From a virus, in IMG/VR virus record IMGVR_UViG_3300031963_008481, positions 1 to 32,803 of that record: a DNA stretch of 32,803 nucleotides. One strand, 5' to 3'. Below, piece after piece: positions 6,147-30,455 of the stretch (position 1 is the stretch's first letter; each line of letters begins with the position of its first letter). Position numbers and translations under genes: made by a program. The notes under the pieces are model-generated. The model saw nothing but the letters and a program-made list of their open reading frames with translations. It had not been told where the DNA came from and did not search any database.

Positions 6147-6225
6147 CAATATTAGATGGCAGTACTACAAAATAGTCATATACTTTAAAAATAAAAAAAG
6201 AAAAAAGAAAGACTTTATATATTAA
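6139..6225 (+). CDS. Basic 28-aa coupling peptide
   Basis: MINNIRWQYYKIVIYFKNKK continues with a Lys/Arg stretch. GGAGAT lies about 5 nt upstream of its ATG. It overlaps the end of the SGNH gene by 8 nt, and its TAA shares a base with the ATG of the carbamoyltransferase (TAATG). It may serve mainly to carry ribosomes onto the next gene, which has no strong site of its own. Confidence 0.45.
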   Translation: MINNIRWQYYKIVIYFKNKKRKKKDFIY

Positions 6226-7646: not shown

Positions 7647-7650
7647 CAAT

Positions 7651-8496: not shown

Positions 8497-8497
8497 T
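8489..8497 (+). promoter_or_regulatory. Extended -10 promoter TGCTATAAT at the end of paralogue 2
   Basis: TATAAT (8492-8497) with TGC in front; a start near 8504 would open the transcript exactly at the 5' arm of the structured element at 8505-8567. No good -35 is seen. Confidence 0.5.
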
Positions 8498-8504
8498 AGG
8501 AATA

Positions 8505-8567
8505 AGGGTGTGGTTGGCCTATATTTGTCGGGAAACTTTTATAGTCTATGTTGCAACACCACACCCT
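8505..8567 (+). ncRNA. Structured RNA element closed by a 10-bp perfect stem
   Basis: AGGGTGTGGT (8505-8514) pairs perfectly with ACCACACCCT (8558-8567), enclosing 43 nt in which CTATA and TATAG can pair again. It lies between an extended -10 promoter and the glycosyltransferase ribosome site. It could be a small RNA, a leader that regulates the downstream gene, or a long-loop terminator followed by CCTAATTTTT. No known RNA family is recognised. Confidence 0.45.
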
Positions 8568-8590
8568 CCTAATTTTTGAGGTGAACTTGT

Positions 8591-9655: not shown

Positions 9656-9810
9656 ATTTAGAAAATGAAATAAAAGATATACTTTTTGAAATAGGAAAGG
9701 AAATTAAGGTTCACAAACTTATTGATGGAAACCTCATTATAGAAATTGATTATGACAAGTATACTATTTCAATTATGGAACTAATTAAAAAATATTTATC
9801 TAACGACTAG
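9652..9810 (+). CDS. Small hypothetical protein (52 aa)
   Basis: MNLENEIKDILFEIGKEIKV then ELIKKYLSND: amphipathic helices flanking a short beta stretch (NLIIEIDYD). The ATG overlaps the stop of the glycosyltransferase (ATGA), so it is translationally coupled. It is the last + strand gene, ending 11 bp inside the convergent sulfotransferase gene. Confidence 0.6.
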   Translation: MNLENEIKDILFEIGKEIKVHKLIDGNLIIEIDYDKYTISIMELIKKYLSND

Positions 9811-10537
9811 GATTCCAAAACAAAGAATCATTTTCGTATATCTCTTTATCTAGTTTAAAGTTTTCAAGTATTGAATCTTTTTCGCTTTGATCTAAAGAAT
9901 TAAATAATCTTTCTGAAGCATCATTCTTAAAATATGTTTTATTAATTTGTGACAAATCAATATTTAATTCTACACCCAAATCTTCTGATATCTTTTTAAC
10001 TAACAACTCATAGTCCATAGACTCTAACTCGTCAGTCCTAATAAATAGGTTTGTTCTCTTAATTCTGTCGTATATCAACTCTGTATCATATTCTTTTTGT
10101 TCATTATGAAAAAATTGTGCTTCTTTGATAACAGACATTGCTGCTGGATCTGGACTTAAAGCAAAATTGTGAGACTGAAAATCTTTCATGTATGGCCATG
10201 TGGATAATTTTTCAAACAACTCTTCTTTTTCAACATGAAGATTTTCTCCATTGATTGTGTGCCAATTTTCTTTGTCTATTAAGTCTGCTCTACCTGCAGC
10301 AGCGTGGCATACGGAACTAACAAAAAATTCACAAGGCTCTCTAAAAACTGAAATGACATATGTTTCATCATCTATAAAGAATGGCCATCCACCGTGTTGT
10401 CTCATGTCTTCTGGCATTCTTAAATACTCAATGCCGTGCTTAGCAAGAGTCTCTTCCATAGGTCTAAGGATGTATTTTGTTAAAAACCTTCCACCAGTTT
10501 TTGGTATGTGTAAAAAATAGACTTTATTGTATTTCAT
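9800..10537 (-). CDS. Sulfotransferase-family protein
   Basis: The N-terminal FLHIPKTGGRFLTKY is the 5'-phosphosulfate loop of PAPS-dependent sulfotransferases. VISVFREPCEFFVSSVCHAA matches the 3'-phosphate-binding segment (R-x-P...S). The likely reaction is transfer of sulfate from PAPS to a sugar or small molecule. It is 245 aa, in the normal range. It overlaps the thioredoxin gene by 4 nt. A second member lies at 20934. The acceptor is unknown. Confidence 0.7.
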   Translation of the reverse strand: MKYNKVYFLHIPKTGGRFLTKYILRPMEETLAKHGIEYLRMPEDMRQHGGWPFFIDDETYVISVFREPCEFFVSSVCHAAAGRADLIDKENWHTINGENLHVEKEELFEKLSTWPYMKDFQSHNFALSPDPAAMSVIKEAQFFHNEQKEYDTELIYDRIKRTNLFIRTDELESMDYELLVKKISEDLGVELNIDLSQINKTYFKNDASERLFNSLDQSEKDSILENFKLDKEIYENDSLFWNPSR

Positions 10538-12761: not shown

Positions 12762-13223
12762 CTACTTGATTTTAATAGACTTGGGTTTCTTTTCTTCTGG
12801 AACTACTCTGATGACATTTACATTTAAGATGCCATCTTTTAGTTCTGCTGAGGTCACTTCCATATACTCGCCAAGAGCAAAAGATCTTACGAACTTTCGT
12901 CCTGCTATACCCTTGTGAAGAACTTGACCACAGCCACAATTTGAGGCTATCGTGCAGCCACAGCCTGACTCTGTTGCTTCATCAACTATTTCTCCTTTAA
13001 TGATTAATGTTCCGTTTTCTACGGAAACATCAATATCATCTTTAGAAAAACCAGCAACCGCAAGAGATATCCTATATGTATCCTCATCTAGTTTGATAAG
13101 ATCATAAGGTGGATATGATTGTGAGTTTGTTTTGTATGCATTGTTTAGGCGATTCAACTCTCTGTTGAAGCCAATAAAAAAAGGATCATTAAATAGATCC
13201 AGTGTTGACCATGTTTGTTTCAT
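12762..13223 (-). CDS. Hsp20 / alpha-crystallin small heat-shock protein
   Basis: The 153-aa protein has an alpha-crystallin domain from about residue 42: YRISLAVAGFSKDDIDVSVE, GTLIIKGE, FVRSFALGEYMEVTSAELKD and GILNVNV, ending with PEEKKPKSIKIK, which carries the C-terminal I-x-I-like anchor. It is an ATP-independent chaperone and known in cyanophages. An unusual insertion with CGC and CGCG (about residues 88-100) lies in the loop before HKGIAGRKF and could bind metal or form disulfides. It has its own strong promoter and a Shine-Dalgarno AAGGGG. Confidence 0.88.
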   Translation of the reverse strand: MKQTWSTLDLFNDPFFIGFNRELNRLNNAYKTNSQSYPPYDLIKLDEDTYRISLAVAGFSKDDIDVSVENGTLIIKGEIVDEATESGCGCTIASNCGCGQVLHKGIAGRKFVRSFALGEYMEVTSAELKDGILNVNVIRVVPEEKKPKSIKIK

Positions 13224-13836: not shown

Positions 13837-13998
13837 TTATTCCCTCGATTTTTGTAGTTGTGTATAATGATTTAAACAGACATCTAGAACTTTTGTTTCC
13901 GTGCTAAACAATTTTTCTCCGTCAACATCGCATGCAATAACACTACAAATACCCAATGGCTCAAAAGAAAGTTGATCGTAGGTTTTAAATTCTATCAT
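13837..13998 (-). CDS. Small hypothetical protein (53 aa)
   Basis: MIEFKTYDQLSFEPLGICSV then IACDVDGEKLFSTETKVLDV. It looks alpha/beta with two Cys and resembles no family I know. It shares ATGA with the SsuD-like gene before it and abuts the XapX-like gene after it. Confidence 0.55.
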   Translation of the reverse strand: MIEFKTYDQLSFEPLGICSVIACDVDGEKLFSTETKVLDVCLNHYTQLQKSRE

Positions 13999-14873
13999 TG
14001 TCTTGAGTCCACATAATTTTTTATAAAAGGAACTATTACTTCTACTTCTTCTGATGGAACAGCATTAATAAGCATATGGTTTATACCTCTGCTTTCAAGA
14101 GTATTCACAAGATCGTCAAACTGTTCATAAGTAAAGTATGCAGCATCAAGAACAGGCTGTGGAACTTCTCCTTTTTTCCATACTGGTCTAACTACATGAT
14201 TAGTTAATAAATCAAGTTCTTCTTCTGTTTTTCTGATAATTGGAGTAATTGCTAACATTACTTCCATGCCTTTTAAGTCAAGTGGAACTGATACAGAAGG
14301 ACCCTTCAAAAAATCAGACCAACCTCCACGAGCATATATGTGATATGGCAAGATAATTTTGTGTCCATATTTTTTTGCTGCTTCAAAAACATAATGATTT
14401 GTCGTTGAAACATAAACATCTAACTTGTTTGTGTGGTTTGGATCACGCCAATATCCTGGGGATTCCTTATCTTGATCCATTTCGTTTAGTACTTTAAGAA
14501 ATTCTATCATATAGTTTGATCTGTCAACGTTACTTGATTTATCGTTTACGTTTCCAACAATACCACCAACACCATCTTCATGGTCTTTAATATATCCACA
14601 AATCAAATTAACCTGAAGCCTATTTTTGTCTATTCTATCCATAGACCTATTTATCATAGAAAGATATTGAGGAGATATTGTGTATGGACGAATTGCTACC
14701 AAATATTTAATGTTTTCGCCTTGTTTTATATCTTTTGCTGCTTTTATAAACATATCACCTTCTGGAATATCATGTGTAAACATTACTCCAGAGAAATTAT
14801 TGCTGTTTAAGTTTGATGGGGATTTGATATTTTCGGGATCTCCCATTACTCCACCAAAATAATAAAATTTCAT
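13995..14873 (-). CDS. SsuD-like FMNH2-dependent monooxygenase (paralogue 1)
   Basis: LLM-superfamily TIM-barrel signature: IKYLVAIRPYTISPQYLSMI then DRIDKNRLQVNLICGYI. It matches the FLVAxRPG.xSPxxAA / GRLxxNxVTG block of alkanesulfonate monooxygenases, which use FMNH2 and O2 to release sulfite. The length, 292 aa, is shorter than SsuD (about 380). It is a paralogue of 21508-22338 in the same operon. No flavin reductase partner is seen nearby, so the host must supply FMNH2. The true substrate is unknown. Confidence 0.7.
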   Translation of the reverse strand: MKFYYFGGVMGDPENIKSPSNLNSNNFSGVMFTHDIPEGDMFIKAAKDIKQGENIKYLVAIRPYTISPQYLSMINRSMDRIDKNRLQVNLICGYIKDHEDGVGGIVGNVNDKSSNVDRSNYMIEFLKVLNEMDQDKESPGYWRDPNHTNKLDVYVSTTNHYVFEAAKKYGHKIILPYHIYARGGWSDFLKGPSVSVPLDLKGMEVMLAITPIIRKTEEELDLLTNHVVRPVWKKGEVPQPVLDAAYFTYEQFDDLVNTLESRGINHMLINAVPSEEVEVIVPFIKNYVDSRQ

Positions 14874-16791: not shown

Positions 16792-17124
16792 TCACTTTTT
16801 ATCAAAAAGAACCTTGATTATTTGCTGAAGGGCTGTTCTTTCATCAACAGGAAGAGCCTTTATTTTATTTATATCAAAGGCCCTCTCGCTTATAGTTACA
16901 ATTGGGTTTGGCAAGGTTATGTCCATGTCTACAAAACCTTTTTCCCACAACTTCATTGCTACTTCTGAAAAATAAACAGACATTTCTCGATCAAGATTGG
17001 GATCTATGTCTTTTAGCAGTTCTGTTCTGACATACATATTCTCTCCAGTTTCTGGATCTTTTCCAGTAAACTTTATTCCACCAGTTAAAACCAGCCTATC
17101 AAATATTTCATCTTCATTGATCAT
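16792..17124 (-). CDS. Hypothetical protein (110 aa)
   Basis: MINEDEIFDRLVLTGGIKFT then ENMYVRTELLKDIDPNLDRE; alpha/beta composition, ending in a helix ERTALQQIIKVLFDKK. It shares ATGA with the thermonuclease gene. It may work with it, but no domain is recognised. Confidence 0.55.
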   Translation of the reverse strand: MINEDEIFDRLVLTGGIKFTGKDPETGENMYVRTELLKDIDPNLDREMSVYFSEVAMKLWEKGFVDMDITLPNPIVTISERAFDINKIKALPVDERTALQQIIKVLFDKK

Positions 17125-17528
17125 TTCCCTGACTTCTTTCTAGCCTTTGCTAAAGCATCAAAATCTTTTACCTTGGTATCTCCAAGATATCCCCATGCAT
17201 AACCATCATTAATCATCATGTCATTAAGAGACACAGTGTCATCATTGACATAGATCCATCCTAAGATACGACCATACTTTTCAGATGAATCCATCTTCTC
17301 AGTCTTAATCACAACGGACTTAGCGTCCTTTAGAGCCTTCTTCAGGTACTCCTTAGACTCAAGACCAAGAGCCTTCTCTTTAAGATCCTTGGTGCGAGAC
17401 TCAGGTGTATCAATACCCGCCAATCTCACACGGGATGAAAACAAAATGTCAAACCCTAAATCAATAAGAACGTCAATGGTATCTCCATCTACTACGTTCT
17501 CTACTTTTCTTACATAATATTGATACAT
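17121..17528 (-). CDS. Thermonuclease (staphylococcal-nuclease fold)
   Basis: The domain covers almost all of the 135 aa. VDGDTIDVLIDLG supplies the metal-binding Asp, RVRLAGIDTPES the first catalytic Arg and the second Asp with Glu nearby, and SEKYGRILGWIYV the second Arg. It cleaves single-stranded or unwound DNA and RNA with calcium. No signal peptide is present, so it acts in the cytoplasm or is released at lysis. It could degrade host nucleic acid. Confidence 0.88.
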   Translation of the reverse strand: MYQYYVRKVENVVDGDTIDVLIDLGFDILFSSRVRLAGIDTPESRTKDLKEKALGLESKEYLKKALKDAKSVVIKTEKMDSSEKYGRILGWIYVNDDTVSLNDMMINDGYAWGYLGDTKVKDFDALAKARKKSGK

Positions 17529-17538
17529 ATAAGCCCCC

Positions 17539-17823
17539 TTAGACCCAATACTTAATTATAGCAGTTATAGCCAATATAGACCATAGTAAGTTAAACCATA
17601 TTAATGTTGGTATTGTCTTTACTGTAGATGACCATATCAGCATTAGACTTGATACCAGCGCAAAAATGTAAAGCCACCAGATCTGTTTATTAAATAAAAG
17701 ACCTGGAATAATAATTACTGCCTTGGCCACAAATGCAAAGAACTCGACAGTATTTGGTTTGTTCCAGTATTTTCTATTAAGCATTCCGCTTAATGCGATC
17801 ATCCATTCTGGCTTCTGTTTCAT
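17539..17823 (-). CDS. Small membrane protein (94 aa)
   Basis: Three hydrophobic segments (FVAKAVIIIPGLLF, WWLYIFALVSSLMLIW, TLIWFNLLWSILAITAII) follow a basic, Trp-containing start. The ATG overlaps the halogenase stop (ATGA). It may help locate or supply the halogenase, but that is a guess from neighbourhood. Confidence 0.55.
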   Translation of the reverse strand: MKQKPEWMIALSGMLNRKYWNKPNTVEFFAFVAKAVIIIPGLLFNKQIWWLYIFALVSSLMLIWSSTVKTIPTLIWFNLLWSILAITAIIKYWV

Positions 17824-19364
17824 TTTAATCCCTCTAAAAATTGTCTATGGTCTACACATTCTGAGACCTTGTAGTCTTGATATTTTTTGTAATAGTCATA
17901 CATATCAACACCCTTCTTGTAGTCTGCAGAATTTTCTATATATGTTTTTGCAATATCTTTATTGATTGTATTGTGTGCAGAACCCAAAAAGGTCCAACTA
18001 TTTGATGACCAATGTTCTCCAGAATCAAACTTATTTGGAAGTCTACCCCTCCATTTGTCAATCCTTTCCTGCAAACCCTTTGGTGCATTTTCGTATGAAA
18101 ATTTTTGCCAAAATTCTGTGTCATTTCTCAAGGTCATGTAATGGAAATATATAAAGTCAGAAATATTGTTATTCATATTAACTATGTTCTTGTTAAACTC
18201 TTCTCTTACATCTTTTGAATTTCCAAACAACCATAGTGGGTTATCAAATATTTGTGTCAACTGTACAATACTAACCCAAATAGAGGTTGCTTCAAGTGGC
18301 TCAACAAAGTTTGCTGCAAGGCCAACTGCTACACAGTTATTAATCCATGGCTCTTCATAGCATCCAGCACTGAACTTAAAGCCCCCTTTGTCCTTTCTTG
18401 GATAGGTTGGCTCATAACCTAAGAACTCTTCTATCTCTTTTGCTGCTTCTTCTTCAGAGATCAAAGATGAGTCATATACATAGCCGCAACCAAACCTAGA
18501 CTGCAGAGGTATCTTCCACATCCAACCATACTTCATTGCAATTGCCTCTGTATAAGGAGGGATCTTATCTTCCATATCAACAAAGAATGGGAGAGCAGAA
18601 TCAACTGGAAGAAAGTCTTTATAACTTTTCCACTTTGAATTATAAACTTTGCCAATGATTAGTCTATGTAGTCCGCTACAATCAAAAACAAAATCACAGG
18701 AAATCTTCTCATTATTATCTAATACTAAACTCTTTACATAGTCTTTTTCATCTAGCAAGACATCTTTTATTGTGCCATCAACTAATCTAATTCCTCTTTC
18801 TGAACCTATTTCTTTTAGTCTATCTGCTAGTTTGGTTGCATTAAAATGTATAGACACATTTCCTATTTTTTTGTAATCATTAATAGGATCTTTATTAGCA
18901 ACAAAGCCAAAATCTCTTTTGCTGGCTTCTAAAATAAAAGGGACCTTCTTAGATTCTGAATTTTTTTCTGTAAAGTCTATGTCCTTTACACTACCATTTA
19001 AGGCAATGCTTGCTGCAATTAAAGGGCTATTAGAAAGATACCTATCATATACAGCGTCAAACCCTAAAGATCTGTCTGTTGTGGAAAATCCATGATAGTA
19101 AAATTCTCCGTCGTTATTCCAATTTGTAAATTTAATTCCATTCTTAATGGTTGCATCACAATTTTTTACTAGATCAGAAATAGGGATACCTAGGTGGTCT
19201 ATAAAGTCTGTAAGGTATGGAGTTGATCCCTCTCCTGCTCCTAAGATTCCTATTTCTTTTGACTCAATAACCGTGATGTCTAATTCTGGGTATGATCGTT
19301 TTGCTTTAAGTGCAGTAAGCCACCCAGCAGTTCCTCCACCAACAACAACTATCTTCTTTGTCAT
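17820..19364 (-). CDS. Flavin-dependent halogenase (tryptophan-halogenase family)
   Basis: The 514-aa protein has all family hallmarks. The FAD-binding VVVGGGTAGWLTA is at residues 6-18. A catalytic Lys (K74, in ATIKNGIKF) stands where PrnA/RebH have Lys79. W281-M-W-K-I-P286 is the WxWxIP motif, and NFVEPLEATS (352-361) carries the active-site Glu. It would use FADH2, O2 and chloride or bromide to form HOX and halogenate an aromatic or other electron-rich substrate. The ATG at 19364 (MTKKIVV) overlaps the upstream stop (TAATG); an in-frame start 10 codons earlier lies inside that gene. A phage halogenase (VirX1, cyanophage) is known. Substrate unknown. Confidence 0.9.
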   Translation of the reverse strand: MTKKIVVVGGGTAGWLTALKAKRSYPELDITVIESKEIGILGAGEGSTPYLTDFIDHLGIPISDLVKNCDATIKNGIKFTNWNNDGEFYYHGFSTTDRSLGFDAVYDRYLSNSPLIAASIALNGSVKDIDFTEKNSESKKVPFILEASKRDFGFVANKDPINDYKKIGNVSIHFNATKLADRLKEIGSERGIRLVDGTIKDVLLDEKDYVKSLVLDNNEKISCDFVFDCSGLHRLIIGKVYNSKWKSYKDFLPVDSALPFFVDMEDKIPPYTEAIAMKYGWMWKIPLQSRFGCGYVYDSSLISEEEAAKEIEEFLGYEPTYPRKDKGGFKFSAGCYEEPWINNCVAVGLAANFVEPLEATSIWVSIVQLTQIFDNPLWLFGNSKDVREEFNKNIVNMNNNISDFIYFHYMTLRNDTEFWQKFSYENAPKGLQERIDKWRGRLPNKFDSGEHWSSNSWTFLGSAHNTINKDIAKTYIENSADYKKGVDMYDYYKKYQDYKVSECVDHRQFLEGLK

Positions 19365-19567
19365 TACTTTCTTCCCCATTGTATATAGTTCCATCCACGC
19401 TCATGGAAATAATAAAGAATTGTTTTTGTAATTACTTCAAAACTTGCAATTGCCCCTGCCGTGATTGGTTCTTTGGTTATAAACCAGGCAATGACAAAGG
19501 TATCTGCTGTTCCTATTATACGCCATGTAATGGCCTTAAGTGCTGACCTTTGTTTACTAACGTTCAT
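19364..19567 (-). CDS. DUF2061-like membrane protein (copy 1)
   Basis: ALKAITWRIIGTADTFVIAW then ITAGAIASFEVITKTILYYF and HERGW match the small two-span DUF2061 family. Function is unknown in all members. The ATG at 19567 is preferred over GTG at 19576 because it overlaps the stop of a possible 12-aa ORF. It is directly coupled to the halogenase. A second DUF2061-like gene lies at 22862. Confidence 0.75.
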   Translation of the reverse strand: MNVSKQRSALKAITWRIIGTADTFVIAWFITKEPITAGAIASFEVITKTILYYFHERGWNYIQWGRK

Positions 19568-19602
19568 GCTGGCCACTCATAATCATTAACTGGCCTGTTC
19601 AT
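19564..19602 (-). CDS. Possible 12-aa coupling ORF
   Basis: MNRPVNDYEWPA ends in ATGA shared with the DUF2061 start. It fills the only gap between two otherwise abutting genes. It may be a translated spacer that passes ribosomes on, or chance. Confidence 0.25.
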   Translation of the reverse strand: MNRPVNDYEWPA

Positions 19603-19615
19603 CTTTTTATAAATC

Positions 19616-20377
19616 TTAGATGCCCATTTCTTTACGCTTTTCAGTAGCCGAAATAGCATGAATCTCTGCCCCCAAATCTACTTGCTCAATCTTGTATCCT
19701 ACATCCCGCCCATAAACAATGTTAGTGATGTTTGGTAATCTTAATACTAATGCGTCATCCATAAATTCATCTTTAGCAATATATCCCTTAACCTCATCAA
19801 AAGTCAGTGGATCTTTCTCGCTTGTATTGTATGTATTACGGACTCCAAGTAGTACTTGATCTGTTCTCTTCCCCGCTTCTTTGTAAAGGGCGTGGTGTCC
19901 CTCGTGCCAAGGCTGGTACCTACCCAGCATCAAAGTTGTAGGTGCAGACCAGTCATGTAGGCCAAACTGATTAATTATTTCTGTTGCTTTTTCATTTGCG
20001 TTCCACTCATGACTAATAAACGCCATGTCAAAATTACTTGGCACTTCAAACATTTTATTAGTATCTTCAAACCGACTTTCTTTAATTGTTTCCATATAGA
20101 TTAAAATATCTGGCTTGCCAAATGCTAAACGAGTTAGATCTGTTGGACATACAAAGTCAACAATTACGGGAGCAATGCCTTGCTTGGCAATAAGCCTTGC
20201 CATCTCTCCCATACGACGAGCCTGCTCAAGTCTGTCCTCTGGTGCAAATCCCAAGTCTGAATTTACTGTTGCACGAACTTCATCTGCATTAAGATGGATA
20301 GCATTAATACGTTCTTTCAGTGCCTTGGCGAGTTCAGTCTTTCCTGATCCTGGAAGACCTATAATCTGAATAATCAT
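19616..20377 (-). CDS. APS-kinase-like P-loop domain fused to an NMNAT-like nucleotidyltransferase
   Basis: Residues 1-140 look like adenylylsulfate kinase: the P-loop G7-LPGSGK-T14, then LNADEVRATVNSDLGFAPED and RRMGEMARLI. Residues 147-253 are an HxGH nucleotidyltransferase: LGRYQPWHEGHH (H158-x-G-H161) and the C-terminal ISATEKR (242-248). Together the halves recall PAPS-synthetase-like logic (activate then phosphorylate), but the second domain resembles NMNAT/cytidylyltransferases more than ATP sulfurylase. It may feed the neighbouring sulfotransferase with PAPS or make another activated compound. ATGA overlap with the hydroxylase. Confidence 0.75.
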   Translation of the reverse strand: MIIQIIGLPGSGKTELAKALKERINAIHLNADEVRATVNSDLGFAPEDRLEQARRMGEMARLIAKQGIAPVIVDFVCPTDLTRLAFGKPDILIYMETIKESRFEDTNKMFEVPSNFDMAFISHEWNANEKATEIINQFGLHDWSAPTTLMLGRYQPWHEGHHALYKEAGKRTDQVLLGVRNTYNTSEKDPLTFDEVKGYIAKDEFMDDALVLRLPNITNIVYGRDVGYKIEQVDLGAEIHAISATEKRKEMGI

Positions 20378-20937
20378 TTTTTCCCCAACTCCTCATTTGG
20401 CATTATGTCAATAAGCAAATGAATTCTATCTATATCACTATTGTTTTCTACAAGGTGTGGCCTTGAGTTGTTAATTTCCCAACACTCTCCAGCCTGCATG
20501 CTGATCTTTTCATTTCCAACACCAAAGAAAACATTATCAGATGTAACGATTGGAATATGATTTCTTTTAGATAGCATTAGATAGTCTCCAGAGTCAAAGT
20601 GAATTGATATATCTTCTCTGGCCTTTAGTTTAATTAATAGAACCATGCCTCTAACACCATCATGAATTTCTTCTAGGTTTTTTATAATAGGCTCAAGTAA
20701 ATCGATCAACTTAGAGTCATCAGACTCTAGTCTTGTGGCAAACTCCTGGCCACTCTTCCATTGCAGGTTTGCTCTATATACAAAATATGAGACAGTATCC
20801 TTGTGAACATCATAGTTGTCTTGTCTTGATGTGTCTAGCAACCACTGACTAGAAAAGCCTGAAACATAATTCTTTATTTCATCAATGCTGTATATGTTGT
20901 GCTTTTTAAAGTTAAAGTCTTCTAGCGTCTTTCTCAT
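20374..20937 (-). CDS. Asp/Asn beta-hydroxylase-like 2OG-Fe(II) protein
   Basis: The 187-aa protein ends in a jelly-roll: ISIHFDSGDYLMLSKRNHIP supplies a His-x-Asp-like pair and the R-x-H-I-P segment. MQAGECWEINNSRPHLVENN gives the distal His and DRIHLLID the Arg, as in the aspartyl/asparaginyl hydroxylase family (PF05118). It likely hydroxylates a free or protein-bound residue. It overlaps both neighbours by 4 nt. Confidence 0.65.
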   Translation of the reverse strand: MRKTLEDFNFKKHNIYSIDEIKNYVSGFSSQWLLDTSRQDNYDVHKDTVSYFVYRANLQWKSGQEFATRLESDDSKLIDLLEPIIKNLEEIHDGVRGMVLLIKLKAREDISIHFDSGDYLMLSKRNHIPIVTSDNVFFGVGNEKISMQAGECWEINNSRPHLVENNSDIDRIHLLIDIMPNEELGKK

Positions 20938-21518
20938 TTTGTCTCCAAGGTTTGATTAAAGTCTTTAGAATACGCAAAGTTTATAAAGTCAGAACTGTAA
21001 AAATCCTGGACCATATCTATTGCCTCATCTGTATAGTCTTCTATATATGATTCTACCATATAGTTGCCTACATTGTAAAATCCAAGAGTCCATTCAAGTT
21101 CTTCTTCTAACTCCTTTAAGTTCTCAAACTTATAAATTCTGTCTACCTGAATAATGTCCTGATCAATTACATAAAAAGACTGGGGGATGTGGAGTAGTGG
21201 GCTTATTGGGGATATCTTTCCCTGTTTGATATTATTTAAGTACTCTGAAAATGAAATGTTTGTTTGATTAGTTTTATTGTATTGTTTATAGCAACTGTAT
21301 GTTCTCGTGTATGGGTTTCTTACAACAGCAAAAGAAAAGACACTGTCGTCTATTAAATTGGCTTCTTTTAAATATGAGTATGGATCGTGATGCCTTGGCC
21401 ATTCTCTTTTCCAATTGTCTAGATTTTTTTCATTTAGTATTTTAGAAATTGAAGATCCTGCAGTCTTTGGTATGTGAACAAAAAGTACTGCACTATACTC
21501 TTTATCTCTAACTATCAT
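20934..21518 (-). CDS. Sulfotransferase-family protein (194 aa)
   Basis: VLFVHIPKTAGSSISKIL is the PAPS 5'-phosphosulfate loop. FAVVRNPYTRTYSCYKQY is the 3'-phosphate segment. The later FENLKELEEELEWTLG matches the family's C-terminal part. It probably sulfates a carbohydrate or small molecule. The start at 21518 is chosen because GAGGA lies 7 nt upstream; longer starts exist to 21533. It sits beside the APS-kinase fusion. Confidence 0.75.
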   Translation of the reverse strand: MIVRDKEYSAVLFVHIPKTAGSSISKILNEKNLDNWKREWPRHHDPYSYLKEANLIDDSVFSFAVVRNPYTRTYSCYKQYNKTNQTNISFSEYLNNIKQGKISPISPLLHIPQSFYVIDQDIIQVDRIYKFENLKELEEELEWTLGFYNVGNYMVESYIEDYTDEAIDMVQDFYSSDFINFAYSKDFNQTLETK

Positions 21519-22338
21519 TTTCTGCATCCTCACTATTTATTTCTTTAACAAGTCTATTTACTCTTATATCGTTCTGTTGGTTCCAGTCTGAGTCTAAAAT
21601 TTCTGTATTCGTAAACAGTAGCAAATCAGTTATTCCCTCATCCTTTAGATTAATTATCTTTTGTTTAACTGTTTGATAGTCTCCAATAATTGAAAAGTTT
21701 ATGTGTCTAGGATTAGCAGGAATAATTTTTTCTTTATACTCTTCAATCTCTTTGTTTGATTCTAAGATGGTAACATTTGCGCTGACCATTCTTTTTTCAA
21801 TTCCGTCAAACTTTTTTATATTCTCTCTATATGTATCCAACATGCATAGCGATGTTCCCCCATGAATTTTTACAGTCTCTAAGGTGTAATCAGAGTATCC
21901 GCTAAAAACCATAGGAGGTCTTTCAGAAACTGGACAGTAAAGTTTATACATTTTTACAAAATTTCTTAAAAATGTAGTTCTTTTTTGTATAGTATCTATT
22001 GGTTCTGATTCTAAAAAAACATCTAACTCTATATCTGGCTCATCTGATCTATTATGAAAATCACCAGCAATCCAATTAATTATAAGTCTGTTACTTTCTA
22101 TCTCATTATATGCTTTAGTCATCATTGAAAGATACTGAGGACTTACATGATACGGTCTTAGTGCAATCATATATTTTAGTTTGTGGCCAGGGGTAAGAGA
22201 AGCAGCAGACTTTACAAAATAGTCTGGTTGTTGTGAATGAAAAGTTAACAAAACTGACTTATAGCCACATTCTTCTAGGTAATGAGAAAGAGCATCAAGA
22301 GGAAGTTGGGACTCTCTTAGCATGTAATGAATATTCAT
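21508..22338 (-). CDS. SsuD-like FMNH2-dependent monooxygenase (paralogue 2)
   Basis: The same block as paralogue 1: LKYMIALRPYHVSPQYLSMM and EIESNRLIINWIAGDFHN, in a 276-aa LLM barrel. The N-terminal HYLEECGYKSVLLTF and LVKEINSE at the end fit the fold. It lies five genes upstream of the halogenase. Members use reduced FMN and oxygen, some desulfonating alkanesulfonates. The substrate is unknown and divergence from paralogue 1 suggests a distinct one. Confidence 0.7.
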   Translation of the reverse strand: MNIHYMLRESQLPLDALSHYLEECGYKSVLLTFHSQQPDYFVKSAASLTPGHKLKYMIALRPYHVSPQYLSMMTKAYNEIESNRLIINWIAGDFHNRSDEPDIELDVFLESEPIDTIQKRTTFLRNFVKMYKLYCPVSERPPMVFSGYSDYTLETVKIHGGTSLCMLDTYRENIKKFDGIEKRMVSANVTILESNKEIEEYKEKIIPANPRHINFSIIGDYQTVKQKIINLKDEGITDLLLFTNTEILDSDWNQQNDIRVNRLVKEINSEDAENDS

Positions 22339-22565
22339 TATTGAGCAAGTTTTTCTCGTTCATCAATAATTGTTATAGCAAACTTCATCATTTTGTCATA
22401 GCCTACTGCATTATCCATGATTTTATTATAGTGATGACCACAAAATAGCAAGTCTCCGTTTAACCCAGTTACTTGAACCAGGGCTTCCGCATTGCACCTA
22501 TCGCATCTATTTAAAGGTGACAATTTCCATTCTGGTTTTACATCATCTTTAAGCATTGTAAACAT
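22338..22565 (-). CDS. DUF7455-like zinc protein (75 aa)
   Basis: LNRCDRCNAEALVQVTGLNG then DLLFCGHHYNKI forms a CxxC...CxxH zinc site seen in small actinobacterial DUF7455 proteins. The ATG at 22565 follows GGAAGG by 6 nt. Codons further upstream would overlap the FmdB-like gene. Role unknown. Confidence 0.65.
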   Translation of the reverse strand: MFTMLKDDVKPEWKLSPLNRCDRCNAEALVQVTGLNGDLLFCGHHYNKIMDNAVGYDKMMKFAITIIDEREKLAQ

Positions 22566-22566
22566 A

Positions 22567-22752
22567 TTATACCTTCCGATTGTCGGTTTTATAAAATCCA
22601 GAGCCATTGAATGTGACTCCTATATTAGAGTATACACGAACTAGGGACTGATTGCAAGTCTCACATTGATACCCTGGATCGTTTTCGGACATAGACCTAA
22701 TCTTTGTATATCTTATTGCACAAGACATACAGTCATATTCATATGATGGCAT
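22567..22752 (-). CDS. FmdB-type zinc-ribbon protein (61 aa)
   Basis: MPSYEYDCMSCAIRYTKIRS opens, and YQCETCNQSLVRVYS gives the second CxxC of a zinc ribbon. GVTFNGSGFYKTDNR closes with the family's F-x-G-S-G-F-Y-x-T-D block. It may regulate transcription or act as an adaptor; small FmdB proteins are common in actinobacteria and their phages. Confidence 0.85.
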   Translation of the reverse strand: MPSYEYDCMSCAIRYTKIRSMSENDPGYQCETCNQSLVRVYSNIGVTFNGSGFYKTDNRKV

Positions 22753-24643: not shown

Positions 24644-25516
24644 TTAATTACGAATGTAAGAGGCAGACCCTATTACAATCTTTGAAAGAGAAGATAAATA
24701 CTCTCCAAAGGTACTAAAGGTATTGCGATTTACATACGAGGCTGCAGAAACTGCAGTTGCCACAGAACTTCCAGCAGTATCTGTTGGAGAACCATTGTAC
24801 TTGGTGATACGAACCTTGCCAGGAGCAACCATATCAAGTCCAGGACCTGTGTTTGTCAGTCCTTCTAGTTGTGTTGCGTTGCCCAATGCTCCCACACCAA
24901 TTACTCCATTAACACATGAAGGAAATCCTACAACATCTTTGCGTCGATCATTGCCTGTTGCAGCAAACACTGGAATGTTGTTTGCATTTAAAGATGCTAC
25001 TGCATTCACAGTAACTGTATCATTTGTGCATAGTTTAAGGTTGTTTGCGCTTACTGAGGACTGGCTGACTGAAAGAGCATCGATACTATACTTAGATGCA
25101 TTCTTTGATACCCAGTCAAATGCTAGTGCCAAGGCTCTTGCATCTCCCCTTGAATTTCCAAGGGATGTAACATCATTAAATCTAATAAAAACAATCTTTA
25201 GATTTGGATCAACAGTGAGAGCAGCCTTAACCATTGAATCACCATGGTAGGTAGCGTTGTTAATTGATTTTGGCCATGGAGCAGATGCTGCACCCTTGCC
25301 TTCCATAAACAGTTCTCCGTTAGGGCAAGACATGTTTTGAGAAACAATCTTTGACTTTACAGTTGTAAAGCAGACCTCGTGAATAATTTGAGGGAAGTTA
25401 TTAGAATTGATGGCAGAGTCAATAATCGCTAAGACTCTTTCATCTTGTGCCTGTGCTGGCTGAATTGCTGTGATTACAAGTACTGCTGATAGTAGTGCTA
25501 GTAGTGCTTTCTTCAT
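24644..25516 (-). CDS. Secreted subtilisin-like (S8) serine protease
   Basis: A Sec signal peptide (MKKALLALLSAVLVITAIQP, cleaved after AQA) precedes a compact S8 domain. The catalytic residues are D33 in VLAIIDSAIN, H91 in YHGDSM, the oxyanion N189 in FAATGND and S251 in GSSVATA. At 290 aa it is small and has little or no propeptide. It may process virion or host surface proteins outside the membrane. Divergent residues around D33 leave some doubt about activity. Confidence 0.75.
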   Translation of the reverse strand: MKKALLALLSAVLVITAIQPAQAQDERVLAIIDSAINSNNFPQIIHEVCFTTVKSKIVSQNMSCPNGELFMEGKGAASAPWPKSINNATYHGDSMVKAALTVDPNLKIVFIRFNDVTSLGNSRGDARALALAFDWVSKNASKYSIDALSVSQSSVSANNLKLCTNDTVTVNAVASLNANNIPVFAATGNDRRKDVVGFPSCVNGVIGVGALGNATQLEGLTNTGPGLDMVAPGKVRITKYNGSPTDTAGSSVATAVSAASYVNRNTFSTFGEYLSSLSKIVIGSASYIRN

Positions 25517-25543
25517 TTATTTTATCCTTTGTTTGTTGTTTGT

Positions 25544-25726
25544 TTATTCTTTTATTTTAAAAACTACTTGACATGGATCTCCACCGTCTTCCCACTCCTG
25601 CTGTTCTTCAGCAGTCATGTATGGATCTCCATCATGGGTGTTACAGAACGGTTCTGTAATCCACCCTCTATCTATACCGTTTTCCAACCATATAGTAAAC
25701 TCATCGTGATCTATTTCTTCTAGCAT
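25544..25726 (-). CDS. Small acidic protein (60 aa)
   Basis: MLEEIDHDEFTIWLENGIDR then MTAEEQQEWEDGGDPCQVVF. Highly acidic, with two Cys. It has its own perfect leaderless promoter that overlaps the end of the Thr-peptidase gene. No family is recognised. Confidence 0.6.
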   Translation of the reverse strand: MLEEIDHDEFTIWLENGIDRGWITEPFCNTHDGDPYMTAEEQQEWEDGGDPCQVVFKIKE

Positions 25727-25732
25727 ATAATA

Positions 25733-25761
25733 ATTATACTCCTAAGCACTGACAATGTCAA
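25733..25761 (-). promoter_or_regulatory. Perfect leaderless promoter TTGACA-17-TATAAT-6-ATG
   Basis: TTGACA (25761-25756), 17 bp, TATAAT (25738-25733), then 6 nt to the ATG at 25726. It is embedded in the last codons of the upstream gene. Confidence 0.8.
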
Positions 25762-26266
25762 CTGGACCCATGCAGGATGGGCTAAATTTTATGGCTGCAT
25801 TAACTGCCTGAAGAACTCTATTTCTTGCATTTTTTTGTTTGTCTGTGGCATACAAAACCCCATACGCATACTCTGCTCCAGAGCCCATGGCTAGATATGG
25901 AACTGTATATTTAGATAAAGACATATCCCCAGAACTGTGTTCATATATTTCTCCACGAATTGCAACAATTAATCCTAGGTCTCCGTCTTTGGATGTATCA
26001 ACCCAGAACTCGTTATAAAAATCACGAAGTTCTTTAACAAACTTAGTCTGCATAAATTTGTCTGTGTCTTTAAGGTTGGGTGCTGTTGGTTTAAAATTAT
26101 AACGGATTCTTTCTCCGTCCATTGCACCAGCATATCCAATAAGATATGGACCTATCTTCCAAACCTTTGGCGCATCAAGTGATAGAATAGTATTATCGTC
26201 AGATGCCCCACGATCTCCAGCCATATATACTTTACCTTCGTGTTTTACTACAGCAATACAGGTCAT
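25742..26266 (-). CDS. Proteasome/HslV-like Thr peptidase (Ntn hydrolase)
   Basis: After Met removal, TCIAVVKHEGKVYMAGDRGA places Thr1, Asp17 and Lys33 exactly as in 20S beta and HslV subunits. GSGAEYAYGVL holds the Ser129-like turn. It is 174 aa, HslV size, with no propeptide. It may form a ring peptidase in the cytoplasm, working with a host ATPase such as Mpa/ARC, or process virion proteins. No ATPase is seen here. The start at 26266 follows GGAGGGG and is fixed by Thr1; the frame is open to 26335. Confidence 0.85.
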   Translation of the reverse strand: MTCIAVVKHEGKVYMAGDRGASDDNTILSLDAPKVWKIGPYLIGYAGAMDGERIRYNFKPTAPNLKDTDKFMQTKFVKELRDFYNEFWVDTSKDGDLGLIVAIRGEIYEHSSGDMSLSKYTVPYLAMGSGAEYAYGVLYATDKQKNARNRVLQAVNAAIKFSPSCMGPVDIVSA

Positions 26267-26271
26267 GCGAA

Positions 26272-26325
26272 AGCCCCTCCAGATAGGTATGATTAAGTAT
26301 ACCATCCACCTGAAGGGGCTGTCAA
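26272..26325 (-). promoter_or_regulatory. Promoter overlapping a Shine-Dalgarno-sequestering hairpin
   Basis: AGGGGCT (26314-26320 on +) and AGCCCCT (26272-26278) pair, with inner CAG/CTG and GGTAT/ATACC pairs, burying the GGAGGGG ribosome site in read-through RNA. TTGACA (26325-26320), 18 bp, TATACT (26301-26296) starts a transcript near 26289 that lacks the 5' arm and leaves the site free. Confidence 0.55.
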
Positions 26326-26341
26326 CTAGGGTCAATAATGA

Positions 26342-26626
26342 CTAATTAGCCTTTTTGTCTACCGTTTTAAACGCATCATTAATCTCTGCTAATGTGAGTT
26401 TTCCATCGTCTAAGAAGGCTCTTGCAAGCCTCTCAATGACACTTGCTACACCAAGCAGACCTGCGAGCATTACTGCCTGAAGGGTATCAATTCCTACTAC
26501 GGCACCAGCACCAAGTACTGATAGACCAGAAGCAGCAAACACTGCTACGATACGCATTAATATATTAGAAAGGGCTTTTTGTGGGCTCTCTTTTTTAGGG
26601 GCCTCTACTACCTTTTTAGTTGCCAT
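26342..26626 (-). CDS. Holin-like membrane protein (94 aa)
   Basis: A short basic start (MATKKVVEAPKKESPQKALS) is followed by two hydrophobic helices (IVAVFAASGLSVLGAGAVVG, QAVMLAGLLGVASVIERLAR) and a charged tail. The layout matches small phage holins. It shares some pattern with the protein at 13340. Function inferred. Confidence 0.6.
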   Translation of the reverse strand: MATKKVVEAPKKESPQKALSNILMRIVAVFAASGLSVLGAGAVVGIDTLQAVMLAGLLGVASVIERLARAFLDDGKLTLAEINDAFKTVDKKAN

Positions 26627-26838
26627 TATTTATCTCCTTTCCCAGCGAAATATCCGCCAATAATTCCAATTAGACCTACTAAGGCATTTTGAACTAAAGC
26701 GATAGCATCTTCATTGGTTCCAAATTTTTCACCCGTTGAAGATTGCTGTAAGAGCATTGAGGCATATTCACCAAGAACTACTAAGCCAATAAAGCCAAGT
26801 ATGCCTAGGGTTATGACCCACATTAATTTATCTTTCAT
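26626..26838 (-). CDS. Small two-span membrane protein (70 aa)
   Basis: Spans at WVITLGILGFIGLVVLG and ALVGLIGIIGGYFAGKG, linked by a polar stretch with acidic residues. It may be a holin or antiholin. It abuts the holin-like gene after it and follows another membrane protein by 1 nt. Confidence 0.55.
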   Translation of the reverse strand: MKDKLMWVITLGILGFIGLVVLGEYASMLLQQSSTGEKFGTNEDAIALVQNALVGLIGIIGGYFAGKGDK

Positions 26839-26839
26839 T

Positions 26840-27067
26840 TTAGTCCTCCTTTCTTAGCGGTATTGTAATTAACCAAATTACTGTTGTTGCAAGTACTGCA
26901 ATACCAACAATATCTCTGGCTGATCCTGTTAGGGTTAACCATGCGATAAAGAAGCCAAGGAGGGTGAATGCCTGTGCAATTAATTCCATTCCTGCGTCTT
27001 TAAACCATTTAACTAATCCCTTTAGTAGTTTACCTAAAAGGTTAATTGCTTTATTGATTATCTTCAT
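26840..27067 (-). CDS. Small membrane protein with amphipathic N-terminus (75 aa)
   Basis: MKIINKAINLLGKLLKGLVK is a basic amphipathic helix, followed by two hydrophobic helices (ELIAQAFTLLGFFIAWLTL, VGIAVLATTVIWLITI). It could assist lysis or membrane attachment. It has AAGGAGG inside the end of the previous gene and shares ATGA with it. Confidence 0.55.
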   Translation of the reverse strand: MKIINKAINLLGKLLKGLVKWFKDAGMELIAQAFTLLGFFIAWLTLTGSARDIVGIAVLATTVIWLITIPLRKED

Positions 27068-29157
27068 TTGTTCCTCCTTATGACTGCCCCTGCAATTTGT
27101 GATACGATGATCACTGGGACAATTACTTCTTGCGCTTTCTCTCTCTGATCGTCTGTCATATCCATACCTAACTCAGAGAAATTAGATAGGAGTTCTACTG
27201 GGTCCACTGCAAAGACTGCTCCAAGTGGGTCTGCTAAGAATGCTTCTGTTTGTACTTCTGTTACTGCATCTGCTAATGTAAAGGGCATTGGTGTATCCCC
27301 TGCAGATTCTGCTCTATCACCAAACTCAACAAATGCTGAAGCAAGTTCTGGATTAGACTTCATCTGCTCAGCAATCTGTGCAACTTCTGAGACCTTAATA
27401 CCAAGATCTTCTGCAACCTCCTGCTTTGCTTCTTGAGTCAATGCTTTAAGTGTTTGGCTAACTGCTGTTATTTGTTCAGGGGAAAGAATAACTAATTTGT
27501 TATCCTTGCTTGTAAGGTTAGCAATAACTCCAGATAGATCTTCTGATGTTCCAGTTCCTTTTTCAGGAACAAGTGCTGCTAAAACTTCATCTTCAATTTC
27601 TACATCTGGCTCAGTCCAAGGATTCTCTTCTGGCTCTGGTTCTGGTCCAGGCTCTGGCGATGGTTCTGGGGTAGGCTCTTCAGTAGGCTCTGCAACTGGC
27701 TCTTCAGTTGGTTCTGGCTCTGGTGTAACCTCTGGGGTAGGTTCAGGTGTAGGCTCATCTGTAGGATCTACTGTAGGCTCTGGAGAAGGCTCTGGTGTAG
27801 GTTCTTCTATTGGTTCTTCAGTTGGCTCTGTAGAAGGTTCTGGGCTTGGCTCATCTGTAGGATCAGGAGTTGGCTCTTCAGTTGGTTCTGTAGTAGGCTC
27901 TGGTGAAGGTTCTGGTGTAGGCTGATTGGCTGCAGCATTGGCTGCTGCTTGAGCAATAGCAGCATTAAGTTCTCGTTGTGCCTGCTCATAATAATATTCC
28001 CATGCATCTTCAATGGCACTATTAAGATCAACTATTGACTGATCATATTCATCTTCTGCATTTTCTTTGTTCTGTAGTGCAGTTGCTGTGTTTGTTACGG
28101 CAGTATTATAGTTGTTAGTTTTACTTGTCAAGGTTTGGTTGTATGTGTTCAGTGTTGAAACTGCCTGATTGTAAACATTTAGTTTGTCATTGTATACTGC
28201 TTGGGCTGAGGTCTTTGCAACAAGGGCAGCATTATATGCATTAACTTGTTCTTGACTTGCTTGTGTGCCATGGGAGAATGTATTAAGATTACAACTAAAA
28301 CCTACACCCCATCCACCAGTATAATCACAACCTGCTCCAGTCCAACCTCCAGGAATTGCCCATCCAAGATGATAGGATCCTGGGCCTCCACCGTTATACC
28401 ACCATATCTCTACATCTAAAGTCTTGTCTTCACTAACATCGTACACTGGAGAATATGGACTCCATGTTGTTCCTTGCTCTACCCAGTTATTAACAGCAAG
28501 GTTTCCGTTAACATACATTCTAAATCCATCATCTGTGTACCCTGCAAAATATGTCGAGGTCCAGTGTGATGGCACCGTAATTACTCCAGTAAACTTAACG
28601 ATAATATTTTCATAGTATCCGCAAACTGGAAGGTTCATTGAACTTGAATTCCATGTGCCAGTACATATAACAGATCCAGGTATCGCTACGCTACCATTTC
28701 TTAATAGATGATAAACGGTATACTCAAGTCCTACACCACCCTGCACAGATGCTTGTGCTGTAGATAGATTTATATTTGCTATGTCAAGGGCGTCTTGTGC
28801 ATCATTTTTATTTTCTAGTGCTGTGGCTACCGTTACTGTTTGTCCATCTACTGCTGTTTGGGCTAAGTCTTTTTCTTCAAGTGCCGTGGTTTCTGCAGAT
28901 AGGGCATTGGTATGTGCAGCATAGGCATCGTCCCTATCCTGTTTAGCATCAACGGCAAAGTTATATTTATTTTCTGCTATATCAATAAGGCTATTGAACT
29001 GATCTTTATACCCAAGGTCATCTACGCTGTCTTTAAGGTCTTGTATTTCTTGAGCAGCAACTGATATGGGATCGTTAGGATTGGCCTCTGTAGGGGCTAT
29101 TAGAAGCCATCCAAAGGCCAATAAAGTGGCTGTTACTATTCTTGTTAAGCGTTTTAT
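27064..29157 (-). CDS. Secreted PA14-domain, coiled-coil, Pro/Glu/Thr-repeat protein (697 aa)
   Basis: With ATA at 29157 as start the product gains a complete signal peptide (KRLTRIVTATLLAFGWLLIA, then PTEA). It then has a helical coiled-coil region, a PA14-like sugar-binding domain (FAGYTDDGFRMYVNGNLAVN and GPGSYHLGW), more coiled coil, and a long PEPTxEP repeat (about residues 410-510). A helical domain and a C-terminal hydrophobic stretch VIVPVIIVSQIAGAVI with RRNK follow. It looks like a cell-wall-spanning adhesin or host-surface protein. TTG at 29121 would cut the signal peptide. AAAGG lies upstream. Confidence 0.7.
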   Translation of the reverse strand: MKRLTRIVTATLLAFGWLLIAPTEANPNDPISVAAQEIQDLKDSVDDLGYKDQFNSLIDIAENKYNFAVDAKQDRDDAYAAHTNALSAETTALEEKDLAQTAVDGQTVTVATALENKNDAQDALDIANINLSTAQASVQGGVGLEYTVYHLLRNGSVAIPGSVICTGTWNSSSMNLPVCGYYENIIVKFTGVITVPSHWTSTYFAGYTDDGFRMYVNGNLAVNNWVEQGTTWSPYSPVYDVSEDKTLDVEIWWYNGGGPGSYHLGWAIPGGWTGAGCDYTGGWGVGFSCNLNTFSHGTQASQEQVNAYNAALVAKTSAQAVYNDKLNVYNQAVSTLNTYNQTLTSKTNNYNTAVTNTATALQNKENAEDEYDQSIVDLNSAIEDAWEYYYEQAQRELNAAIAQAAANAAANQPTPEPSPEPTTEPTEEPTPDPTDEPSPEPSTEPTEEPIEEPTPEPSPEPTVDPTDEPTPEPTPEVTPEPEPTEEPVAEPTEEPTPEPSPEPGPEPEPEENPWTEPDVEIEDEVLAALVPEKGTGTSEDLSGVIANLTSKDNKLVILSPEQITAVSQTLKALTQEAKQEVAEDLGIKVSEVAQIAEQMKSNPELASAFVEFGDRAESAGDTPMPFTLADAVTEVQTEAFLADPLGAVFAVDPVELLSNFSELGMDMTDDQREKAQEVIVPVIIVSQIAGAVIRRNK

Positions 29158-29195
29158 TTGCCTTTCCCCCTTGCAGACTAATGTCTGATAGGGTT

Positions 29196-29204
29196 ATTAT
29201 ATCA
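29196..29204 (-). promoter_or_regulatory. Extended -10 promoter upstream of the PA14 gene
   Basis: TATAAT (29201-29196) preceded by TGA. The leader contains the hairpin CAGAC/GTCTG just before the purine-rich ribosome site. No clear -35. Confidence 0.45.
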
Positions 29205-29211
29205 TTTTATT

Positions 29212-29248
29212 GCACAAAAAAGGGGCTATCACAATTGATAACCCCTTT
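29212..29248 (-). terminator. Strong intrinsic terminator after the secreted Ala/Thr-rich gene
   Basis: A 13-bp stem (29219-29231 with 29236-29248, one G-U) has a 4-nt loop. In the minus direction it is followed by TTTTTT. It closes the terminase transcription unit. Confidence 0.85.
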
Positions 29249-29261
29249 AGTGTTGGACTAA

Positions 29262-30455
29262 TTACTTAACTAAAGCAACCTTAGCCTTTGGATTCTTCTT
29301 GTTCCACTTTGTAGCAAGTGCATTGAATGACTTCTTCAAAGAAGCAAGTGCAGCAGCGTTATCTGCTGTTAACTTAGCAATCTGTGCATCCTTAGCAGCA
29401 AGAGCAGCATCTGATGCTACCTTTGCATCTGCAAGTGCCTTAGCAGAAGCAGCCTTCTCTGCTGCAATAGCAGCATCTGCAACAGCCTTTGCCTGAGCAA
29501 CTGCGGTTGTTGTATCATCCTTGAACTTTGCAAGTTCAGCATTCTTAGCAGCAATTAGAGCAGTGTGCTCTGCTGTTGCCTTAACTAATGCAGCATCTGC
29601 AGCAGCCTTAGCAGCAAGTGCTGCATCCTTAGCAGCAGTCTGTGCAGCAAGTTCTGATACTAGATCACGGACTGTGATTTCTGCAAACGGTGCTAATGCA
29701 CGAGCAGGAAGACCTACTACATCAGCAGTTGTTGCATCTGCAGCAGTTGTTGGGCTGAATGTAATTAATGAGCGTGTTCCAGTTGCTGGAAGTGTTGCAA
29801 CAAACTTTGCAACTCCAAAATCTGAAAGCGTAGCACCAGTGGTTGCTGTTGCTGTGTCTAGTGTTGCTGTTGCAGCAAATACTGTTGCAGTAATTGACTT
29901 ACCAGATACTTTGTTTCCAAATGTATCTGTTGCAGTTACTGTGATATCTTGCTTTGTACCAGCAGCACCTGTGGCAGGTGCAGAGACTGTAAGAGTATTA
30001 ATCTTGCCAGCAGTTCCCTGTACATAGTATGTAAGGGTTGTTCCCTGGTTGTTGATTACAACTGTGCCAATTGCTGTTGTCTTTGTGTAGACATAAAATG
30101 TTGCAGTTGTTCCTGTACCAGTTGCAATTGTCAAAGATGAAGATCCTGATGTTGCTCCTACTGGTGCAGCGGTTGTGTGTAGTGCAGACACGATTGTTGC
30201 GTTTGTTGTTGTAACAGAAACCGATGTTCCTGTGTCAACTGTTGCGACGAACTTAAGTGCGTCTGCAGCGTCAACTGTGTTATCTGCGGGTACTGGCAAT
30301 GCAGCAGGTGTAGCAATAGAAGAGTTTGTAGTGTTTGCTACAGAATCTAATGATACAGCGACTGTCATTACAGCAGCACTTGCAGGTGTTGCTACGATTG
30401 TGCCCAAAGTCATGGCTGCAACCATGGCTAGTGCGATTTTCTTAAATGAGTTCAT
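29262..30455 (-). CDS. Secreted Ala/Thr-rich surface-like protein with coiled coil (397 aa)
   Basis: A Sec signal peptide (MNSFKKIALAMVAAMTLGTI, then VATPASA) precedes a Thr/Ser/Val-rich beta region with Ig-like features (KQDITVTATDTFGNKVSGKS). A long Ala/Lys helix (about residues 265-375) and a basic end KKNPKAKVALVK follow. It resembles actinobacterial S-layer-like proteins more than virion proteins. Its base composition is richer in G+C and Ala codons than its neighbours, which may indicate capture from a host. AGGAG lies upstream. Confidence 0.7.
   Translation of the reverse strand: MNSFKKIALAMVAAMTLGTIVATPASAAVMTVAVSLDSVANTTNSSIATPAALPVPADNTVDAADALKFVATVDTGTSVSVTTTNATIVSALHTTAAPVGATSGSSSLTIATGTGTTATFYVYTKTTAIGTVVINNQGTTLTYYVQGTAGKINTLTVSAPATGAAGTKQDITVTATDTFGNKVSGKSITATVFAATATLDTATATTGATLSDFGVAKFVATLPATGTRSLITFSPTTAADATTADVVGLPARALAPFAEITVRDLVSELAAQTAAKDAALAAKAAADAALVKATAEHTALIAAKNAELAKFKDDTTTAVAQAKAVADAAIAAEKAASAKALADAKVASDAALAAKDAQIAKLTADNAAALASLKKSFNALATKWNKKNPKAKVALVK

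Follow-up and report, generated by a model that had tools for sequence, protein, structure and literature searches.

Phage-encoded halogenases and sulfotransferases are already known. The cyanophage flavin-dependent halogenase VirX1 and the halogenases of HTVC008M, P-SSM2 and S-PM2 are virus-encoded PF04820 proteins that possess the catalytic Lys and Glu residues and the WxWxIP motif, and sulfotransferases as well as 2-oxoglutarate (2OG)-Fe(II) oxygenases have been reported in marine phages, where the role of the sulfotransferases was termed unclear (PMC10580990). No native substrate is known for either the viral halogenases or the phage sulfotransferases. Here we show that a linear IMG/VR virus record of 32.8 kb (IMGVR_UViG_3300031963_008481, positions 1 to 32,803; hereafter the window) carries enzymes of these families in a cassette hotspot, located between two backbone genes, whose interchangeable modules include an invariant sulfotransferase-hydroxylase pair (SUL-HYD) and a halogenase with a small membrane protein (HAL-HALm). 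No description of the hotspot, the SUL-HYD pair or the HAL-HALm unit was found in the open literature searched, and a megablast search of window positions 12000-32803 against 50,697 phage records gave zero matches.

A cassette hotspot between the DUF7455 and SNase genes

All genes of the block are located on the minus strand. The left border is the backbone gene encoding a DUF7455 protein (22338..22607; PF24254, 54.4 bits), and the right border is the backbone gene of an SNase-family nuclease (17121..17528; PF00565, 59.5 bits). From left border to right border, the genes between them are SSU, for a 276-aa protein with a bacterial-luciferase fold (21508..22338); SUL, for a Sulfotransfer_2 sulfotransferase (20934..21518); HYD, for an Asp/Asn beta-hydroxylase-type Fe(II)/2OG oxygenase (20374..20937); KIN, for an adenosine 5'-phosphosulfate (APS)-kinase-like P-loop domain (residues ~1-140) fused to a NadM-like nucleotidyltransferase (~145-253) (19616..20377); the gene of a small DUF2061 membrane protein, the partner of KIN (19364..19576; PF09834, 80.2 bits); HAL, for a flavin-dependent enzyme of the tryptophan halogenase family (17820..19364); and, immediately after it, HALm, for a 94-aa membrane protein (17539..17823). 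TAATG joints are present at DUF7455/SSU and DUF2061/HAL, SSU and SUL overlap by 11 nt, and ATGA (4-nt) overlaps are found at SUL/HYD, HYD/KIN and HAL/HALm. Two of the genes probably do not use their first start codon: HAL, whose longer open reading frame (ORF) extends to 19394, would start at 19364, and SUL, listed as an ORF from GTG 21533, would start at ATG 21518, the same Met with which its relatives start. For all block genes with an estimable rate of synonymous substitution (dS), the nonsynonymous rate (dN) is far under dS; the genes are real and intact, and purifying selection acts on them. The original prediction, made from the sequence alone, described five adjacent coupled enzyme genes at 17820-22338; five long ORFs are present there on the minus strand, with overlaps at most joints, but the two small membrane genes, DUF2061 and HALm, had been missed.

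The order SSU-SUL-HYD-KIN-(DUF2061)-HAL is repeated in dozens of IMG/VR contigs, with overlaps of 1, 4 or 11 nt at most joints, and this conservation of gene order is far above chance. To remove seed bias, loci were also fetched by their border genes, DUF7455 and SNase, which yielded 88 distinct border pairs (the module-blind sample). Forty-five of these backbones have no module; KIN is present in 37, HYD in 21, SUL in 11, HAL in 11 and SSU in 10. The states observed between the borders are nothing, KIN-DUF2061, SUL-HYD, HYD, SUL-HYD-KIN-DUF2061, KIN-DUF2061-HAL-HALm, HAL-HALm and the full set, and some backbones hold SSU at this site. Empty sites mostly consist of an exact DUF7455-SNase TAATG junction. 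Constant flanking genes, variable cargo and an empty site are hence all found here, and the region is a phage cassette hotspot with the interchangeable modules SSU, SUL-HYD, KIN-DUF2061 and HAL-HALm. On balance, we lean towards the view that these exchangeable, co-translated modules tailor virion fibre proteins or cell-envelope or glycan components, and not a free natural product.

Parsimony on the backbone tree, in which many forks are poorly supported, requires 25 changes for KIN, 16 for HYD, eight each for HAL and SUL, and seven for SSU; modules are often gained and lost. Moreover, dS to a single relative (L100) differs sharply among neighbouring genes (HYD 0.09, KIN 0.89, HAL 1.0 and SUL 1.65), which argues for gene-by-gene exchange or recombination. 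The modules are also found apart in a record-level check of 20 records, most of them 80-120 kb, which may themselves be fragments. KIN occurs without the other modules in three (G003, G007 and G010), KIN and HAL are far apart in two (G005 and G012), and SUL-HYD-HAL is present without KIN in one (G016). SUL-HYD is also present without HAL on G026 (98 kb), G029 (70 kb) and G034 (51 kb), and HAL without this SUL family on G015, G051 and G046 (contigs of 92, 62 and 59 kb), again with the proviso that records may be fragments. Thus, what the original prediction had named as speaking against it, the occurrence of the genes singly and at unrelated positions in relatives, is found in part: many relatives have KIN alone, and there are cases of HAL lacking SUL, of SUL-HYD lacking HAL, and of HAL far from KIN. 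Likewise, the co-occurrence of the five families that it proposed to look for in viral contigs is seen as a repeated order in dozens of them, but in relatives the modules are single, combined or absent.

The SUL-HYD pair

SUL-HYD is the most robust unit of the cassette. HYD adjoins SUL in all 35 loci with at least 3 kb of flank on each side (a count that, like the HAL-KIN adjacency and the DUF2061 and HALm locus counts given below, includes overlapping loci from one contig), and in 11/11 cases in the module-blind sample. The pair is retained at ~42-44% identity in the unrelated marine phages L231 and L233, where it lies amid glycine-rich, fibre-like and oxygenase genes together with a second sulfotransferase gene; its order is reversed in L247. 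Both proteins score above the family cut-offs (HYD against PF05118, 48.6 bits, cut-off 22.6; SUL against PF03567, 29.9 bits, cut-off 22). The iron ligands H113, D115 and H161 and the 2OG-binding R171 of HYD are invariant, and the motifs of SUL for binding 3'-phosphoadenosine 5'-phosphosulfate (PAPS), HxPKTAGxS (5'-PSB) and RNPYxR (3'-PB), are nearly or fully invariant. SUL and HYD belong to the same superfamilies as the sulfotransferases and 2OG-Fe(II) oxygenases of marine phages (PMC10580990), from which the window pair differs in being invariant, overlapping and part of a cassette. Among sequenced isolates, one partial close match was found for SUL, four partial ones for HYD, and none for SSU. 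The simplest chemistry for the pair would be hydroxylation followed by O-sulfation.

The halogenase HAL and its membrane partners

HAL matches PF04820 with 342 bits (cut-off 21) and shows the features of a tryptophan halogenase: the family score, GxGxxG, a near-invariant WxWxIP, and the catalytic Lys and Glu (among distinct sequences, K84 in 75/75 and E368 in 73/75). The halogenase, hydroxylase and sulfotransferase labels of the original prediction are therefore sound, with family scores above cut-off and catalytic residues intact. The halogenases of phage isolates are less than 60% identical to HAL of the window, and a profile search around the halogenase genes of six isolates detected no HALm. 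Among the loci we analyzed, HALm is present in 112/123 with HAL and KIN and in 23/28 with HAL only, and in 0/92 with KIN only, so that HAL-HALm is a tight unit. KIN lies within 1 kb of HAL in 55/66 loci with the same minimum flanks, and DUF2061 stands between the two in all 114 loci where they are neighbours; KIN-DUF2061 is also a tight unit. The presence of two small membrane proteins around HAL suggests a membrane-bound target.

Would the modules instead tailor host metabolites, for instance to a halogenated tryptophan or a sulfated hydroxy-amino acid, which would aid infection or block competitors? The sequence of HAL is nearer to tryptophan halogenases (best solved match Trp-5-halogenase 8fov, 249 bits) than to VirX1 (158 bits), and the nearest solved structure to HYD is a free-proline hydroxylase, L-proline cis-4-hydroxylase (4p7w). 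The membrane partners of HAL speak against such a role, as does the absence of scaffold-making enzymes (NRPS, PKS or RiPP) and precursor peptides from those proteins of the window that were compared with Pfam, a scan that did not extend to small ORFs or the rest of the genome. With no such enzyme among the scanned proteins, a natural product would be no more than a guess, and we regard the tailoring of host metabolites by separable modules as doubtful.

No support for KIN as a PAPS synthetase

PAPS synthetase is a fusion of APS kinase and ATP sulfurylase, and the original prediction had labelled KIN a sulfate-activation fusion. The N-terminal domain of KIN fits this label: it matches PF01583 with 54.9 bits, its top Foldseek matches are APS kinases, and its modelled fold is that of an APS kinase domain. 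In the structure model the kinase half is good and the C-terminal half is of low confidence, so that the fold search mostly covers the kinase. The C-terminal domain does not fit the label. Comparison with PDB and NCBIfam gave only nicotinamide mononucleotide (NMN) adenylyltransferases (NMNAT) and other nucleotidyltransferases as matches (MJ0541, E 8e-8) and no ATP sulfurylase domain, and the NadM-type motifs GRxQPxHxGH (GRYQPWHEGH in the window) and ISxTxxR are kept across the family, one homologue having IRAT for ISAT. The assignment of KIN as a PAPS synthetase was thus rejected. KIN resembles NadM/NadR (NMN adenylyltransferase and ribosylnicotinamide kinase) in combining a kinase and an HxGH adenylyltransferase in one chain, but differs from NadR in its reverse domain order and in its kinase of the APS-kinase type; these comparisons concern sequence and fold.

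The KIN family counts at least 597 relatives among the IMG/VR matches, is also present in Stenotrophomonas, Xanthomonas and Clavibacter phages, and was detected, at the sensitivity applied, in just one of the 84,980 species whose genomes were scanned. In Casjensviridae, KIN lies beside NADAR or MazG-like genes. In Stenotrophomonas phage Bhz60 (L166:8553-9729) a NADAR gene overlaps the KIN homologue, a hint of NAD or ADP-ribose chemistry.

These data bear on two further explanations. The first is that the five enzymes form one coherent pathway and act one after another on one small molecule or residue, and that in it the KIN fusion supplies PAPS to SUL. The constant gene order with its overlaps across dozens of contigs, the purifying selection, and the coincidence of SUL and HAL in 10/11 cases in the module-blind sample (Fisher p 2.6e-11, uncorrected for kinship) are in line with it. 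On the other hand, the second domain of KIN is NMNAT-like, KIN has NADAR or MazG-like neighbours in Casjensviridae, and KIN is dispensable for SUL because G016 carries SUL-HYD-HAL without it. Since the modules are frequently gained and lost, and are found singly and at other places, a fixed five-enzyme pathway is unsupported and we consider it unlikely. Of the tailoring cluster that had been predicted on a virus, the conserved, translationally coupled block stands, but the single pathway does not. The second explanation is a counter-defence or cofactor module, in which KIN, as an NMN-type kinase/adenylyltransferase, would restore NAD and the other genes would be passengers of the hotspot. It would account for the NMNAT-like domain, the overlapping NADAR gene of Bhz60 and the near-absence of the family from species genomes. 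However, the kinase domain is APS-kinase-like and not NadR-like, and a search for known defence systems gave only a weak P-loop match, which leaves this explanation quite improbable.

The luciferase-fold proteins SSU and SSU2

By its predicted barrel fold (pLDDT 90; Z ~22 against SfnG, MsuD and RutA), SSU is a member of the bacterial-luciferase-like superfamily, and it is a distant relative of SsuD, SfnG and RutA, its profile matching MsuD/SsuD with 64 bits. To this extent the predicted label "SsuD-like" holds. Its score against PF00296 (10.7 bits) is nevertheless under the cut-off of 27.9, and the catalytic Arg226/His228 of SsuD (E. coli numbering) correspond to A and T in the SSU profile consensus aligned to MsuD. 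SSU thus shares the barrel with the alkanesulfonate monooxygenases SsuD/MsuD, but differs from them in its 276-aa length, the weak family score and the replaced Arg/His pair, and the possibility that it is a true SsuD was rejected because of this replacement. A second luciferase-fold paralogue, SSU2 (13995..14873, minus strand; TIGR03565, 35.3 bits), lies ~2.9 kb downstream of HAL and recurs at this distance with the block in dozens of contigs. In L122, L128, L136 and L156, SSU2 is present as tandem overlapping copies, comparable to luciferase alpha/beta heterodimers.

A probable virion or cell-envelope target

We favour a virion or envelope macromolecule as target because SUL-HYD, halogenase and oxygenase genes sit in fibre or collagen contexts in other phages. 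This is the case in L231 and L233, in phage DSL-LC01, whose halogenase gene adjoins collagen genes and a glycosyltransferase gene, and in G014, which has a SUL-HYD-KIN-HAL block and, in a region with fibre-like genes, six 2OG-Fe(II) oxygenase genes nearly in a row (L425:6638-12736), and which also encodes a collagen-like protein (L424:10470-11201). The same families recur in marine phages as HAL-DUF2061-SUL (L229:6405-8534) and HALm-SUL-SUL (L230:3818-5409). A modification of the virion, which the original prediction had listed next to an altered metabolite or glycan, or of the envelope fits this gene context better than a natural product.

On this basis, a working model can be proposed in which phages of this group insert and swap co-translated modules between DUF7455 and SNase. 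HYD would hydroxylate a residue and SUL would sulfate the new, or a nearby, hydroxyl using PAPS of the host. HAL, flanked by the two small membrane proteins, would halogenate an electron-rich group with FAD reduced by the host, and SSU would use reduced flavin or F420. KIN, as an independent module, may phosphorylate and then adenylylate a small NMN-like substrate. A more specific version, which we put forward tentatively, is that uncultivated lake phages use an exchangeable island to decorate components of their own virions or of the host surface, the HYD-SUL pair sulfating freshly hydroxylated residues and a membrane-tethered HAL adding halogens, and thereby alter receptor recognition or block superinfection.

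Several points weigh against this interpretation. The substrate of the cassette is a proposal drawn from sequence, in which a virion or envelope target is probable. The term "fibre-like" in L231, L233 and G014 is a reading of sequences, Pfam being null for two of them, and in the window's own group no collagen genes adjacent to the block were found, collagen-like genes being located tens of kb away. The module-blind sample is skewed towards close relatives of the window. The co-occurrence of HAL and SUL could reflect either one pathway or block transfer, and the tree-corrected association test, with few supported pairs, cannot separate the two. Finally, the source is probably an uncultivated freshwater tailed phage of Actinobacteria, the host being derived from gene types only.

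If the target is indeed the virion or the envelope, the cassette would represent an undescribed means by which phages vary their surface chemistry. For finding out what viral halogenases and the sulfotransferases of phages act on, the constant pairing of SUL with HYD and the nearly constant one of HAL with a small membrane protein supply specific partners, and relatives with an empty site provide natural presence/absence controls.

Other features of the window

Among the products of region 24644-30455 are proteins that look secreted or anchored (with a signal peptide, PA14 plus Pro-rich repeats, and a protease of the S8/mycosin-like type), and a proteasome-like Ntn hydrolase is encoded beside the terminase; together these point to an actinobacterial host. 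At 5235-10537, a NodU-type carbamoyltransferase lies between two SGNH-like proteins that are related to each other; a GlcNAc-type glycosyltransferase comes next, and the opposite strand encodes a second sulfotransferase-like protein. This is possibly a second decoration locus. The protein encoded at 1149-1964 is labelled ferrochelatase by PHROGs, and inspection by eye shows an HxD...H...R pattern as in 2OG-Fe(II) oxygenases. An HSP20 small heat-shock protein gene (12762-13223), close to the block, is retained in many relatives.

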